64,000 bases of DNA, taken from the NCBI GenBank assembly GCA_963580285.1, contig OY757010.1, positions 64,626,406 to 64,690,405 of the forward strand. Reading direction: 5' to 3'. Within the stretch, counting starts at the first letter, position 1. Each line of letters opens with the position of its first letter. Position numbers and translations under genes: made by a program. This DNA is from Lucinisca nassula (taxonomy: Eukaryota; Mollusca; Bivalvia; Lucinida; Lucinidae). The notes below the pieces were generated by a model that searched no databases, was not told the DNA's origin, and saw nothing but the letters and a program-made list of their open reading frames with translations. Below, in pieces: positions 19,129-36,505 of the stretch.

Positions 19129-19712
19129 CCAGGCCGTTCCAATGCAGTTCTTCTGTTGGGGTTTATTTTTGTTATGGTTTGTCTTTGGGTGTTTGTGTCG
19201 CTTATATTATTTTATTTTGGATAGCCTATTGGTAATTTTGGGGGAAAGTAATTGTCCTTTTGGCTTTCCACAGTTGGTGTTTCCGATGGGTCTGTTGTTT
19301 CGTGTTTCTTTCCCTTTAGTGTCTCTGATGGTTTGTTTGTTTGTTTGTATTGGAGTTTAACAGCCCAGTCAACACTATTTAGGTCATTTTTGAGCCGGTC
19401 AGTTTACCTATCAACCCTTTCCTGGGCAGGCTTATACGTAAGCGGTTAAACAGTACAGTGCACATTCTTTCTCCAGAAACTGACAACTGCCCTTCTTGAA
19501 TCAGCTGAAGGGAGAGAATGACCGTAGAAAAGATTTCATGATCAATCTCCACGAAAGAATGTTGCCGACCCTGGCGGGAGTCGAACCCACGTCCTCCTGA
19601 TCACCAGTCAGACGCGCATCCGACTGAGCCACTGAGGCCGGCCTGTGTCTCTGATGGGAGCTGTGGGTTGATTGTATCAATTCCTGATCATTGCCTCCAC
19701 TTCTATTTTACA
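19129..19712 (+). mobile_element. Naiad-type 3' UTR fragment, split by SINE1
   Basis: GGCCGTTCCAATGCAGTTCT to TTGGCTTTCC, then TGTCTCTGATGGGAGCTGTG to CTCCACTTCTATTTTA, matches the 3' UTR of the full element at 27486-32373 in opposite orientation. It is 5'-truncated and interrupted by the SINE at 19332-19644. Confidence 0.75.
19332..19644 (-). mobile_element. SINE1, full length, tRNA-derived
   Basis: On the minus strand the head starts GCCGGCCTCAGTGGCTCAG and carries a canonical A box (TGGCTCAGTCGG) and B box (GGGTTCGACTCC). A ~200-bp body and a TTTG/CAAA tail follow. It is flanked by a perfect 13-bp target duplication GTGTCTCTGATGG (19319-19331 and 19645-19657), and the other Naiad copies show the uninterrupted site. 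Confidence 0.9.
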
Positions 19713-27029: not shown

Positions 27030-27290
27030 ACCGTCTTCCCCCTGTAAACCTCATTTTATATAGACAAAACTGGGGTTTACACGAGTATACATTATTTTTC
27101 TGATTTCTGCTCCAAAACATAGGTTGTGGGTACTCGTTTGAACCGCCTCATTGAGGCAGTTCTAACAAGCACCAGCAACCTATGTTTGGAGTAAAAATAA
27201 TGAAAATATGACAAATATTCATTAGAAAAATAATCGTTTTGCAGGTATGAAAAAATGCACTATGTCACACGGATGTGTTATTGTAATATT
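27030..27290. mobile_element. P2 palindromic MITE
   Basis: ACCTCATTTTATATAGACAA with ACTGGGGTTT, a central GAACCGCCTCATTGAGGCAG, and the right end GATGTGTTATTGTAATA. Collinear with 12510-12788. Confidence 0.65.
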
Positions 27291-27436: not shown

Positions 27437-27485
27437 AACACGCCTATATAATTTTTACCCCCTTGAACCCCACTTTTATATAGTA
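27437..27485. mobile_element. P1 MITE, left part interrupted by the Naiad element
   Basis: TCACGAAAACACGCCTATAT to CCCCACTTTTATATAGT is the P1 left end. The matching continuation starts at 32374. Confidence 0.75.
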
Positions 27486-28232
27486 AGTAGAAGTAAAACA
27501 AAGATCAGGAATTGATACAATTAACTTACTCCATCCATAAAAGACACCAAAGGGAAAGAAATACAAACATTAAGCGACCAGACCATAATGGAAACCTAAA
27601 CAAAGGAAGGCCATATGGACAGTTACTTTCCCACAAAATGGCCATATGGCCATCCAAAATTAAAAGACACAAGTGATACACACAGTAAGTAACAAACAAC
27701 AACATAAATAAATCGCCACAGAAGAGCCGCCTTGGAACGGTCAGTGGAAGATTTCCACTGGGGGGCTTAAATCGATTTTACGTGGCCACAATCCTCGCCC
27801 TTACTTCCGTCGCGATTTAGACAAATAATTTGTTCAGTCCGCATGAAGGCCTCCTAACTCATCAGTGCAACATCTCTGTGAACACAGAAATCAAAGAACC
27901 ACAGAGGTGAGGCAACGGTGAGGACTAGACAGCAAGAAACCACTGAAATGCTGGAGCAAAAGAAAACCAACAGTTAGACTCCGATGAGCCCGACCAGAGA
28001 CAGAGCATCAGGCACCAACCAACATTATCTCTTTAATTTTCAATAAGCCTTTACGTTGGAGCCGTCATAGAATCTGAGGCCTAACCCACCGGCGTGCAAT
28101 TAAAGAGGGAAGCAAAGTTGCCAACCGTGATTGGGTTAACTACCATGCATGCAGTCTGTCGTATAATATCCATGTTGTACCCAATCTTTTTATATCGAAG
28201 AATGATTTTACGAAATTGGGTGCTGAAGTCAT
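27486..28232 (-). repeat. Naiad pseudo-LTR, 3' copy
   Basis: Almost identical to 31629-32373 (for example AAGTAGAAGTAAAACAAAGA at the left and GGGTGCTGAAGTCAT at the right). Coding sequence for the last ~50 RT codons ends at TAG (28083-28081); the rest is 3' UTR. Any SECIS element needed for UGA recoding should be sought here. Confidence 0.9.
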
Positions 28233-31200
28233 TGCGGTTATATATTTTTCTGAATTTATATACTAAGTCACCATAAAATTCGGGTTCCGATAGACCTTGT
28301 TGCAGAAGAGATTTAAGTCCAATATTGAATTTTGAAATTAAATCAGAATGGCGTCTATAAAATTTTGAAAAGGCTTTGCGTAGTTTATGGTACCGATAAC
28401 CCTGATTAAGGAGTTTAGCCGTTAATAATTTATTACGAGTGTTGAAGTCAGTTACATGACTACACACTCTAGCAAATCGAATTAATTGCGAAATATAAAC
28501 GCCATAGGATGGCGCACGAGGAACATCACCATCCAAAAAAGGAAAATTTACAATCTCAAAATCAAAGTCATCGCGTTTATCATAAATTTTGCACGAAACA
28601 AATCCATCTACAATAGATAGATGTAAATCCAAAAACGGGGCCTCGGTATCAGAAGAATTTGCTTTATTTAACTGAAGTTCTAGGGGGTAAATCTGACTGA
28701 TCAAACCATCAAAACAGGTATTATCAATATTTAATAAATCATCTAGAAGTAGAGCTAAAAGCTTCAATAATTTCAGATTGGTTATCAATGGAAAGCGACA
28801 AAATGAAGTCTCTTTCATAACAATACAAGAACAGATCAGCCACAAGAGGTGCGCAATTAGTACCCATCGGAATACCCACAATTTGTCTAAATAACTTAGT
28901 ACCGAATCTAATATAAATATTGTCAAGTAGAAAGGTGAGGGCATCACACACTTTCTGACATGACCAAAGTGTATAATTCTTATGCTCTTTAGAAGTGAAA
29001 AATGCATTTCTGACATTACATGCAAGATAGAGAGAATCTTCTCTGTGAAAAGCCCATTCAATTAAATCATTAAGCTTTTCTTTTATAAGATTATGAGGGA
29101 GTGTAGTGTAAAGAGTGGAAAAATCGTAGGTAGACAGACTAGAAGCACGAAACTGTCTAGATTTCAATTTATTTAAAACCTCATTCGAATTTTTTATAGA
29201 CCAAAACAGATTTCTCCCTGATCTTTCAAAGACTTTATCACAATATTTAATTACATGCGTTTTAATAGCAGTAAGACAGGAAGTTAATAATTTAGAAAGT
29301 TCAGTGGTAGTGCAAGAACTAGAATTTGCAATAAACCGTGCTTTGTAAGGTTTTTTATGAAGTTTTGGTAACCAGTATAGCGTAGGAAGCTTGTCTTGGC
29401 CTTCGTTAACACACACAGCAAACTTGGTGGCTGAAAGACAAACATGTTTATCTACTATAGCTCTCTCTTCAGCCAAAGGCTGAAGTTCATAGGCCTTAGT
29501 ACCACCAAGCTCCTGCTTAAGCGTGTTAACATAGTGGAGCCGTCACACAACGACGACGTTGTTAGCGGCCTTGTCTGCAGGAGCCAAAACAAACTTCTTA
29601 TGAAATTCTTGAATACCTAGTTTAAGATGACGTAAAGACGTCTTGGGCTTAGGAGGTAATAAGTTAGTATTTTGAGAATAGAAAGAAATGCGTTTATTCA
29701 CTATTCTTAAAATGCTAAGTTTCCAGTCCTTTAGGGCTTTACACTCAACATACTCTCGCTTACACCATCGATTACCGAATTCATTCAAGGAAGCAGCAAT
29801 TTCATCTCTACATTTACTGAAATCAATTTTAGAAGGAAACCGATATTTCGGTCCTTTAGAAATTATATTCCTTATCCTAGAATCAGGAATAATTTTCAAA
29901 TTGCCAGTAATTACATGACCAGCAGCAGGATAGCAATACTTTGAGTTTTTACAATCACATGAATCAGGAGTATTAGTATCAATATCAAGATCTGAAACAA
30001 GTTTATTGAAATTAAAAATGATAGATCTAACAGGTTTGTTATATTTATAGCAAATTATAGGTGTTTCAGTATTTTGAAAATAAGCAGGAATGGAAGAAAG
30101 CACCGATCTCTCACGAAAGATACTGGGCAAATCTATAAAATCCATACCCTTATTAATGAAGGATATTTTGAAGAAATGACGTTTATGATTAATTTCAGAA
30201 TCAATGTAAGGACGGAGAGTATGCTGAGTATAGCCTCTAGTTAAGAGAGCCGCATCATATAACTGATGAGAACTATCGTAGAATTTATTCGCCTCGGTGT
30301 CCAGAAGACGTAAAACAGAAACGGGTAATGAACTTAAAAATGAAAGCATAGAGTGGCGTCCATGATTTAATAATATAATTGACAGTCACTTCAGTCTAGT
30401 ATTGTTTCGTTTAAACGCACGTGATTTACGTTTAAAGTTACCATTTTTCCTGGTGCCGTGAAATCTAGTTCTGCGTTTTCGACATTCCAGGAGTGAGAAA
30501 ATATCAAAGTCCAGCATTCTGGAAATATTACCCTCATGATAAATGTTGTCATTAAATCCCAGTGGAAAAGGGGTCTTTAAAAATTTAATCCATTTCAGTT
30601 CAGCTTCATGTCTTTTTATTATTTTGAATCTAGATGTAGAATTTGCATCGTAATAATGTTTTTCCACTGGTTGTATAATAATGTTATTTACAGAATGACC
30701 TGTACGTCGAAAGTGACGGTACAAGAAAGTGTCAGTTTTCTTAGGCTTACTCATTCTACAATAATGCTCGTTCAATCTAGTTTTAAGCATGCGGTTAGTT
30801 TGACCGACGTACTGCATATTACAGTTTGCAGCACGTCAAGTAATTAGATAAATTAAATCTGTAGACTGTCATGTCAAATCAGACATGTTAACTACAGAGA
30901 AGCGTCTACCGTTTACAGATGAAGTAACGGTAGATGCAGTGCTTAAATGCGAACAACATCTGCACCTCTTGGCATTGCACTTAGAAATACTAGGATACAT
31001 TCCACTTCTTTTCCACGGATTAGTATATTTTCGCAGGATGGGTGATTTGAGAGGAGATAGTCTTATACGAAGACTACTCCCAAAAACATTGGTATTGCCT
31101 GCTCCTTTGAGATTAACTGAAGTTACAGAAGACAAATTTAAGGGTCTAACCAATACCGAAGGCAACATAGTATTAAAGTTCTTAATAGAATGGGGAATCC

Positions 31201-31336
31201 GTACAGAAGAAGCAGAGTGTAACCTAAGGGGTGATATTGATATTTTAAATGTATTTGTAATACTCATTTTGGTTAGTAAGGTTGTGATACCGTCAAAACT
31301 AAAGCGATGTTCATACCGGTTATTAAATAAATAAAA
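28081..31336 (-). pseudogene. Naiad GIY-YIG/RT polyprotein with in-frame UGA codons and a frameshift
   Basis: From an upstream TAA (31337) to 28742 one frame stays open except for UGA codons at 30871-30869, 30838-30836, 30388-30386 and 29545-29543; no UAA or UAG occurs. The first two flank LIYLIT, just before QYVGQTNR of the GIY-YIG domain, where Penelope-like endonucleases have zinc-binding Cys. The fourth follows ADKAANNVVVV, also a usual Cys position. RT signatures follow: LPKLHKKPYKARFI, TYDFSTLYTTLPH (motif A), GIPMGTNCAPLVADL (motif B). After FSSTSR the frame breaks: the DDLLNID part of the catalytic motif continues in another frame to TAG at 28081. A loss of about 8 bp removed the residues before DD, so this copy cannot make active RT. 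Confidence 0.85.
30386..30871 (-). other. GIY-YIG endonuclease segment bounded by UGA codons
   Basis: Reads (Sec?)QSTDLIYLIT(Sec?)RAANC, then MQYVGQTNRMLKTRLNEHY. It includes H residues (YRHFRRTGHS, DANSTSRF, KRHEAELKWI) and the typical ending ECRKRRTRFHG. The LIYLIT...YVGQT core is the GIY-YIG signature as it appears in Penelope-like elements; the C, H residues fit the CCHH zinc-finger variant. Confidence 0.85.
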
Positions 31337-31628
31337 TTACTGAAGAAGATTCCTTCGAATAGAAGGTCGGTACAACAAAAGCCCACAAAACATCCTAGTC
31401 TACTTAAAGTACAGGGATGTCAAACAAGCAGTTGTTATACAACGAGGAACGAACATCGGTTTAATAATGACCTTCAACAGGTATCTAAAGGATGTCAATT
31501 GATGGAACAGTGAAAAGCAATTGCATAAGCAATCCCTGAGGATTGGAAAAATAAGAGCATTAAATGCATGTACGGGGAAACCTTTTACAGCCGCCACACG
31601 GCACAAACAAAACAGCCCTGATATGCAA

Positions 31629-32373
31629 AGTAGAAGTAAAACAAAGATCAGGAATTGATACAATTAACTTACTCCATCCATAAAAGACACCAAAGGGAAA
31701 GAAATACAAACATTAAGCGACCAGACCATAATGGAAACCTAAACAAAGGAAGGCCATATGGACAGTTACTTTCCCACAAAATGGCCATATGGCCATCCAA
31801 AATTAAAAGACACAAGTGATACACACAGTAAGTAACAAACAACAACATAAATAAATCGCCACAGAAGAGCCGCCTTGGAACGGTCAGTGGAAGATTTCCA
31901 CTGGGGGGCTTAAATCGATTTTACGTGGCCACAATCCTCGCCCTTACTTCCGTCGCGATTTAGACAAATAATTTGTTCAGTCCGCATGAAGGCCTTCTAA
32001 CTCATCAGTGCAACATCTCCGTGAACACAGAAATCAAAGAACCACAGAGGTGAGACAATGGTGAGGACTCGACAGCAAGAAACCACTGAAATGCTGGAGC
32101 AAAAGAAAACCAACAGTTAGACTCCGATGAGCCCGACCAGAGACAGAGCATCAGGCACCAACCAACATTATCTCTTTAATTTTCAATAAGCCTTTACGTT
32201 GGAGCCGTCATAGAATCTGAGGCCTGACCCACCGGCGTGCAATTAAAGAGGGAAGCAAAGTTGCCAACCGTGATTGGGTAAACTACCATGCATGCAGTCT
32301 GTCGTATAATATCCATGTTGTACCCAATCTTTTTATATCGAAATGATTTTACGAAATTGGGTGCTGAAGTCAT
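31629..32373 (-). repeat. Naiad pseudo-LTR, 5' copy
   Basis: Direct repeat of 27486-28232 with few differences (a 2-bp deletion near 32341, several substitutions). It represents the 3' end of an upstream truncated tandem copy, the usual origin of Penelope-like pseudo-LTRs. Confidence 0.88.
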
Positions 32374-32600
32374 AAAACTGGGGTTTCCGGGGGTATACCT
32401 TATTTTTCTTATTACTGCTCTAAAATATAGATTGTGGGTACTCGTTAGAACCGCCTCGATAAGGCGGTTCTAACGAGTGCCCACAATCTATATTATGAGC
32501 AGAAATAAGAAAAATATCACAATTTTTCATCATAAAATTTTCATTTTTTTTGGCGATAAAGGTGGCAATGTATTTGTATAGGCGTGTTTGGGTAATGTGC
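32374..32600. mobile_element. P1 MITE, right part
   Basis: Resumes AAACTGGGGTTTCCGGGGGT, passes the centre GAACCGCCTCGATAAGGCGG and ends ATAGGCGTGTTTGGGTAATG. Joined to 27437-27485 it gives a ~276-bp P1, the size of the copy at 39570-39842. Confidence 0.8.
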
Positions 32601-35671: not shown

Positions 35672-36505
35672 GTTTTACAGCCCATTTAGGTCATACCAAG
35701 CCAGTCCACACCTTTCCTGGGCAGGCTTAACCCAATCATGGTTGACAGCTTTGCTTTCCTCTTTAACTGCGCGCGAGTGCCTCTGGCCTCAGATTCTATG
35801 ATGGTTCCAGTGTAAAGGCTTACTGAGAATTAGAGAGATCCAATTCAATGTAATGTTGGTTGCTGCCTGATGCTCTGTCTCTGGTCGGGCCCATCGGAGT
35901 CTAACAGTTGGTTTTCTTTTGCTCTAGCATTTCGGTGGTTTCTTGCTGTCAAATCCTAACCATTGTTTCACCTCTGTGGTTGTTTGGTTTTTTGTGTTCA
36001 AGGAGATGTTGCACTGATGAGTTAGGAGGCCTTCATGCGGACTGAACAAATTATTTGTCTAAATCGCGACGGAAGTAAGGGCGAGAATTGTGGCAATGTA
36101 AAATCAATTTAAGACCCCAGTGGAATTCGTTTCACTGACCGTTCCAAGGCGGTTCTTCTGTCGCTGTTTATTTTTGTTATGATTTGTCTTTGAGTGTTTG
36201 TTTTGCTTATATTATTTTGATTTGGATAGCCGATTGGCCATTTTGTGGGAAAGTGACTGTCCGTTTGGCTTTCCGCTATTGATGATTCCATTAGGGTCTG
36301 TTGTTTCATGTTTGTATTTCTTTCCCTTTGGTGTCTCTGATGGGAGCTGTGTGTTAATTGTATGGATTCCTGATCATTGCCTTCACTTCTATTTTTTATA
36401 CATGAGTGGTTTACCAGTACAGTGCACATTCTTTCACCAGAAACTGACAACTGCCCTTCTTGAATCAATGAAAGGGAGAGAATGACCGTAGAAAAGATTC
36501 CATAC
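35672..36505 (-). mobile_element. SINE1 copy split by a Naiad-type fragment
   Basis: The SINE 3' part (GGAGTTTTACAGCCCATTTA, CCTTTCCTGGGCAGGCTTA) lies at 35672-35730. The middle part resumes at about 36405 (GAGTGGTTTACCAGTACAGT, GAAACTGACAACTGCCCTTC). The tRNA-like head is not preserved. The inserted 35731-36395 is Naiad 3' end. Confidence 0.65.
35731..36395 (+). mobile_element. Naiad-type 3' end fragment
   Basis: CAATCATGGTTGACAGCTTT to GCCTTCACTTCTATTTTTT is homologous, on the plus strand, to the C-terminal coding end and 3' UTR of the full element (about 28120-27486 on its minus strand). It is 5'-truncated, typical of retrotransposition. Confidence 0.75.

Follow-up and report, generated by a model that had tools for sequence, protein, structure and literature searches.

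The window, by which we mean the whole 64,000-nucleotide stretch of Lucinisca nassula DNA analysed here, carries on its minus strand a retroelement copy flanked by two pseudo-LTRs. Self-BLASTN places the upstream pseudo-LTR at 31628..32373 and the downstream one at 27485..28232, both on the minus strand, and aligns the pair over 748 columns at 98.8% identity. The downstream pseudo-LTR overlaps the 3′ end of the open reading frame (ORF) and a SECIS-like element, and the upstream pseudo-LTR carries an ORF 3′ end and a SECIS-like element of its own. We note that palindromic repeats of ~115 bases border the pseudo-LTRs (32401-32516 and 27093-27208), recur across the window and trigger weak microRNA matches.

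Between the pseudo-LTRs, the minus-strand frame running from 31336 to 28721 contains TGA at codons 156, 167, 317 and 598 and neither TAA nor TAG in codons 1-865; 43 and 127 stops, of every type, occur in the strand's two other frames. UGA 156 (30869..30871, minus strand, as are all codons listed here) occupies a conserved Cys position before the motif LIYLIT, UGA 167 (30836..30838) lies at the Cys position after LIYLIT and before QYVGQT, and UGA 598 (29543..29545) follows ADKAANNVVVV in the reverse transcriptase (RT). UGA 317 (30386..30388) does not fall on a conserved Cys site. A fifth codon of interest, 460 (29957..29959), is TGT in the window and encodes the first Cys of a CxC motif.

The remains of the ORF extend over 28084..31267 (minus strand) from a Met at codon 24, which is also the start of homologous proteins in 14 rows of the protein match list. 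Codon 865 is the last before a frameshift, placed approximately at 28744..28745 (minus strand), where the window copy lacks 8 bases that are present in all 20 of the other copies compared; the frame then changes, and the window frame runs into TGA 866, TGA 871 and TAA 872. The first-pass annotation had reported UGA as the only stop over about 865 codons, and this description is accurate, with UGA at four of codons 1-865 and neither UAA nor UAG before codon 872; its coordinates and the three motifs named above are also correct. Near the end of the ORF, a TAG (28081..28083, minus strand) is private to the window among the 21 aligned copies, and intact copies are open at this position up to a UAA corresponding to 28053-28051. 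With 8 missing bases and this TAG, the window copy is dead.

Element type and copies in the host genome

The sequence is that of a Naiad-like element, combining a CxC motif, an N-terminal endonuclease and pseudo-LTRs. Craig et al. (Mol Biol Evol) reportedly described Naiad in 2021 as a Penelope-like clade with an N-terminal endonuclease, a CxC motif, a telomerase-like RT that carries an IFD, pseudo-LTRs, tandem copies, a high copy number, an insertion bias to microsatellites and no hammerhead ribozyme, and reportedly stated that Naiads came separately in spiders and in clams to code for selenoproteins containing several selenocysteines. The architecture, pseudo-LTRs and high copy number reported for this clade are the same as in the present element.

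In the alignment, the GIY-YIG endonuclease lies N-terminal to the RT, with PF01541 (GIY-YIG) found in 21/40 aligned members and PF00078 (RVT_1) in 13/40; the element's own protein gave no Pfam match. The CxC motif, SCDC at codons 460/462, is situated between the two domains, and both of its Cys are present in 50/50 distant relatives. An AlphaFold2 model of the element protein (pLDDT 81.3, pTM 0.64) retrieves telomerase reverse transcriptases at Foldseek ranks 1-16, with low TM-scores of 0.22-0.29 by query length, and on this model the RT of the element would be telomerase-like. Like canonical Penelope/Poseidon elements as described in PMC11167929, the element has pseudo-LTRs, tandem copies and an RT with a GIY-YIG domain. 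However, those elements have their endonuclease at the C-terminus and carry a hammerhead ribozyme according to the same paper, whereas here the endonuclease is N-terminal and no hammerhead family occurs among the 61 Rfam matches obtained at E up to 10 in the window.

The host genome that was searched comprises 2,926,205,003 bases in 696 contigs. Its COX1, on contig C696, has a contig protein at 92% as best match, followed among named sequences by the bivalves Novaculina, Ensis and Laternula at 65-67%, with numerous other invertebrates only slightly behind; a quick tree of 29 selected rows groups it with Laternula at a weak support of 76 and under a long-branch warning. Together with the source names on two relatives of the element (P0094 and P0119, below), this makes a bivalve host probable. 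A DNA search, scored from 2697 first-look candidates, yielded at least 41 matches, 40 of which are long and 99-100% identical, including the window copy; our copy sample consists of 20 of the 39 other long matches. All 20 copies have TGA at codons 156, 167, 317 and 598 and TGT at codon 460, so that the check suggested in the first-pass annotation, for conservation of the UGA positions among genomic copies, comes out in its favour. A reading of UGA 317 as a mutation private to the window is rejected by the same data. In codons 1-865 of the sample, TAA occurs at four codons only, in one copy each. When TGA is read as a residue, the longest frame reaches 1094-1118 codons in 15/20 copies and ends in ..ASDSMTAPT in 14 of them and in ..ASDSMTTPT in one; in 2 of these 15 copies, the frame begins further upstream and takes in a fifth UGA ahead of codon 1 of the window frame.

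Counting the window, 14/21 copies have neither a further stop nor a frameshift. At other positions, the 21 aligned copies contain six private stops, namely 5 TAA and the window's own TAG, and none of these is TGA. Each copy differs from the column majority at 3-16 bases of the ORF, the window copy at the most. We further searched the host genome with the N-terminal protein of the relative P0121 and scored the best 89 of 20528 candidates, a set biased to well-kept copies. In this set, 88 matches carry 3 TGA and 1 carries 2, and none has TAA or TAG; all 89 best-scored matches show TGA only, and, with the four UGA present in 20/20 copies, this exceeds what chance would give. One match, at C7:7910651, was considered as a separate two-UGA family and rejected, being a copy of the same family (~97% identical DNA) in which the 317 region is deleted.

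Copies also occur in head-to-tail tandem arrays that repeat every 4151 or 4163 bases (for example from C3:59979878, C10:143989613 and C3:353737 onward), in which one pseudo-LTR is shared by two neighbours. A further locus, L030, combines a 3′ end of the older subfamily with an adjacent, oppositely oriented RT piece of the young family (96.7% identical), representing either a nested or an inverted insertion. No relatives of the element were found in collections of genome contigs and viral contigs.

The UGA sites in relatives from other assemblies

Protein searches gave 480 matches to the frame and 375 to its N-terminal third, of which the best 120 of each were read, amounting to 239 different proteins. 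We separate these into 189 close relatives, with at least 45% identity, and 50 distant relatives below that value.

At site 156, close relatives have W (35), an ORF that ends just before the site (7), a gap (3) or G (1), and distant relatives have C (29), W (1) or N (1). A similar picture is seen at site 167, where the close group shows W (31), C (3), a gap (3), an ORF end (1), L (1) or G (1) and the distant group C (19) or a gap (13). At site 598, close relatives have C (25), W (14), R (1) or I (1), and at site 460 their ORF ends (25) or they have W (9) or C (3); distant relatives have C at both of these sites in 50/50 cases. Site 317 behaves differently, as the 76 close relatives aligned across this position show D (51), N (12), E (4), C (3), V (2), a gap (2), Q (1) or A (1). 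The proposal of the first-pass annotation that all UGA codons fall at Cys positions consequently stands for 156 (29/31 distant relatives), 167 (19/32, with 13 gaps) and 598 (50/50) and fails for 317, which is Asp in most close relatives.

Among the 189 close relatives, considering columns with at least 10 rows in which the element itself has no W, W reaches at least 10% only at columns 156, 167, 460, 598 and 710. W is found at both 460 and 598 in 7 rows, and at 156, 167 and 460 in one row. Further ORF starts are located at Met 174 (56 rows) and Met 600 (16 rows), as expected, since these positions lie downstream of stops at 167 and 598. For these relatives, known as proteins alone, the W residues and ORF ends probably represent UGA codons that gene finders met as code-4 Trp or as stops. 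The source names on the relatives P0094 and P0119 are those of bacteria, presumably symbionts of lucinid clams.

Read in this way, the window family contrasts with most close relatives at two sites, having Cys at 460, where 34/37 covering close relatives have an apparent UGA, and UGA in place of the Asp that most of them show at 317. P0017 and P0035, from a more distant group, combine C at 460 with W at 598, and in P0005 the two sites are Cys; a quick RT tree, in which the window has no starred placement, puts these three proteins outside the main close group. Since the patterns of W, Cys and ORF end at 460 and 598 differ across relatives, Sec and Cys seem to interchange site by site. At the C-terminus of the alignment, the close group together with P0005 and P0017 carries ~80 extra residues that most distant relatives do not have. 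Two Naiad-like proteins of ~1300 residues, P0033 and P0034, carry PF00443, which we take to be a ubiquitin hydrolase domain, in precomputed annotation, reflecting a fusion or a neighbouring gene.

The SECIS-like hairpin and the stop codon

A SECIS-like element lies at 27999..28078 (minus strand) and matches RF00031 (SECIS_1) at 25.1 bits, against a cut-off of 35. The same element recurs in the upstream pseudo-LTR at 32142..32221 (minus strand), again with 25.1 bits against the cut-off of 35, and these two are the only RF00031 matches listed for the whole 64-kb window at E up to 10. The first-pass annotation had suggested a stretch of each pseudo-LTR as a place in which to look for a SECIS; a SECIS_1 match is indeed found at the ORF 3′ end, although its score stays below the cut-off. 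The core elements align with those of RF00031, namely AUGA at 28068-28065, the unpaired A's, and UGAU at 28010-28007. In fact, AUGA falls in the last codons of the ORF, and the UAA stop at 28053-28051 provides the apical A's: in the intact frame, which ends ..D-S-M-T-A-P-T-stop, AUGA corresponds to Met plus the next base and UAA lies on the apical A's.

In six further loci, the SECIS_1 match is recovered at 24.7-25.1 bits in four (L009, L011, L079 and L081) and is absent from the other two, the older-subfamily copies L035 and L036, as it is from 35720-36000 of the window. A pattern with the exact core occurs 25 times in 16/20 copies and the window, 20 of these occurrences being identical, and is without a match in L010, L013, L026 and L028. 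Over 2574 strands of 64 kb generated by first-order resampling, a pattern with an arm energy equal to or below that of the element was hit 53 times, or ~0.02 per strand.

The window also holds a solo 3′ end of an older subfamily (35727..36395, plus strand), which is 83% identical and has recognisable SECIS arms but no Rfam SECIS match. Two truncated 3′ ends had been pointed out in the first-pass annotation. The one at 35731-36395 carries the SECIS region; the other, at 19129-19712, aligns only as 19134-19331 and 19645-19712, outside the SECIS region. Within this latter interval, a tRNA-like match (RF00005, 40 bits, above cut-off) is located at 19566-19638 on the minus strand.

To describe the older subfamily, we used 30 of the best 40 of 14966 candidates, including the window's own solo copy. 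Aligned to the window element, from which they show a 12-base difference in the apical loop, these 30 sequences keep AUGA in 26 cases, AA in 30, UGAU in 28 and all three in 25; AUGA or UGAU is lost in 5/30. The stated arms pair in 97.0% of cells compared with 96.6% in shuffles, the observed value being reached by 143/500 shuffles. When the partner is shifted by 1-3 columns, pairing falls to 34-49%, a drop that is partly expected, since one of these very sequences served to define the structure. The covariation that the first-pass annotation had proposed to look for does not, in the SECIS arms, go beyond shuffles, 97/500 of which reach the score. The pairing data are compatible with the hairpin structure and do not constitute proof of it.

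The protein relatives provide a second view of this region. In 35 of the 46 relatives whose sequence extends to the C-terminus, the protein ends in M-[MTV]-x-x-[TS], which is what a 5′ SECIS arm containing AUGA would encode. Among the other 11, P0053, P0069 and P0084 stop at S-D, just before that place; P0005, P0091, P0017 and P0035 are more distant proteins with different ends; and P0066, P0067, P0074 and P0078 end otherwise or run on.

Selenocysteine and alternative readings of the UGA codons

Our interpretation is built on four conserved UGA codons, a reading frame left open in numerous young copies, the Cys that distant relatives have at three of these sites, and a SECIS-like hairpin. We assign a probability of about 0.88 to the reading that the locus is a copy of a Naiad-type Penelope-like element, of which intact copies would encode a single protein of ~1074 residues with four selenocysteines, decoded via the host Sec machinery. 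The status of selenoprotein is one that we infer from sequence. The first-pass annotation had proposed descent from a selenoprotein-coding lineage, and the UGA codons in 20/20 copies, the Cys at three sites and the hairpin argue for such a descent. Points that count against the selenocysteine reading are the sub-cut-off SECIS score, the lack of a SECIS match in the older-subfamily copies, the 4/20 copies missed by the exact-core pattern, the loss of AUGA or UGAU in 5/30 older-subfamily sequences, arm covariation at the level of shuffles, the mostly Asp character of site 317 in close relatives, and the Cys at 598 in 25/41 of them.

According to the selenocysteine reading, the protein would comprise, in order, an N-terminal GIY-YIG endonuclease, a CxC linker and a C-terminal telomerase-like reverse transcriptase. 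The SECIS-binding protein, eEFSec and tRNA-Sec of the host would act through the hairpin in the element's own 3′ end, with UGA decoded as Sec, and full-length product would appear only under sufficient selenium and sufficient Sec decoding. Both the RT and the putative zinc-binding portion of the endonuclease would carry Sec instead of Cys, and the UAA that ends the ORF would sit inside the SECIS. As a kind, multi-Sec Naiads of clams and spiders have reportedly been described already, and it is well supported that the present element is a further member. A SECIS-like element that spans the stop codon and a non-Cys UGA carried through a recent burst may both be new.

Other explanations of the UGA codons have to be weighed against selenocysteine. 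They could be ordinary nonsense mutations in a dead source copy whose amplification relied on proteins supplied by intact elements; defective retroelements are commonly mobilised in trans, and many copies here are tandem or truncated. However, all four shared stops are UGA and three of them lie at conserved Cys, the rest of the 1097-codon frame is open in 15/20 copies, and the three same sites, together with 460, are seen in relatives from other assemblies. This, in addition to the presence of a SECIS-like element, leads us to regard a nonsense origin as very unlikely. It is also conceivable that UGA is read as a residue other than Sec, by programmed readthrough, by a variant code, or by A-to-I editing to UGG (Trp), and all four UGA do have C as the next base, a leaky stop context. 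We consider such decoding highly improbable: distant relatives carry Cys rather than Trp at three of the UGA positions (with one W in 31 at 156), and the SECIS-like element would be left unexplained. Nor is UGA a general Cys codon, since the copy L009 still uses TGT 19 times and TGC 9 times, against 4 TGA.

Alternatively, the chief role of the UGA codons might be that of regulated stops, with truncated pieces of the endonuclease or RT as the usual products and the full-length Sec protein as a minor one. Four UGA in series would reduce the full-length yield, and most selenoprotein mRNAs redefine UGA with rather low efficiency (PMC8310308). Yet the codons past all four UGA are open in young copies, and therefore the long product would be needed at least at times. 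Furthermore, the selenoprotein P (SELENOP) of bivalves has dozens of Sec, with 46 in oysters and 132 in a bivalve according to PMC8230778, so that heavy Sec use is known in bivalve hosts; the likeness to the present element lies in the many Sec of one protein, but SELENOP is a host protein and not a mobile element. We accordingly judge a predominance of regulated stops to be unlikely and retain the reading of an element encoding a full-length Sec protein.

Within the selenocysteine reading, we tentatively propose a further step, to which we give somewhat less than even odds. The SECIS and the true stop may be one object, in which the 5′ arm encodes the last residues and the UAA gives the apical A's, such that Sec decoding and termination would be physically coupled and the C-terminal peptide would be an imprint of the RNA signal. 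In the same proposal, the non-Cys UGA 317 in the seed copy of the recent burst suggests that new Sec codons may spread nearly freely under efficient host Sec decoding. A SECIS placed partly in coding sequence, as proposed here, has a counterpart in the fowlpox GPX4-type selenoprotein gene, whose SECIS lies in the coding sequence according to PMC8310308 and PMC6769590. The fowlpox SECIS is inside the ORF, whereas the SECIS of the element would start in the ORF, downstream of four UGA, and extend across the stop codon.

With its need for selenium and for the Sec machinery of the host, such a selfish element would be confined to hosts or tissues that decode UGA well. Sec would here serve putative zinc-binding and RT positions, where redox catalysis is not expected. 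Because the young copies are many and near-identical, they offer a natural experiment on the interchange of Sec and Cys codons, and, since the candidate SECIS spans the stop codon, a coupling between recoding and termination would be testable by a simple reporter.
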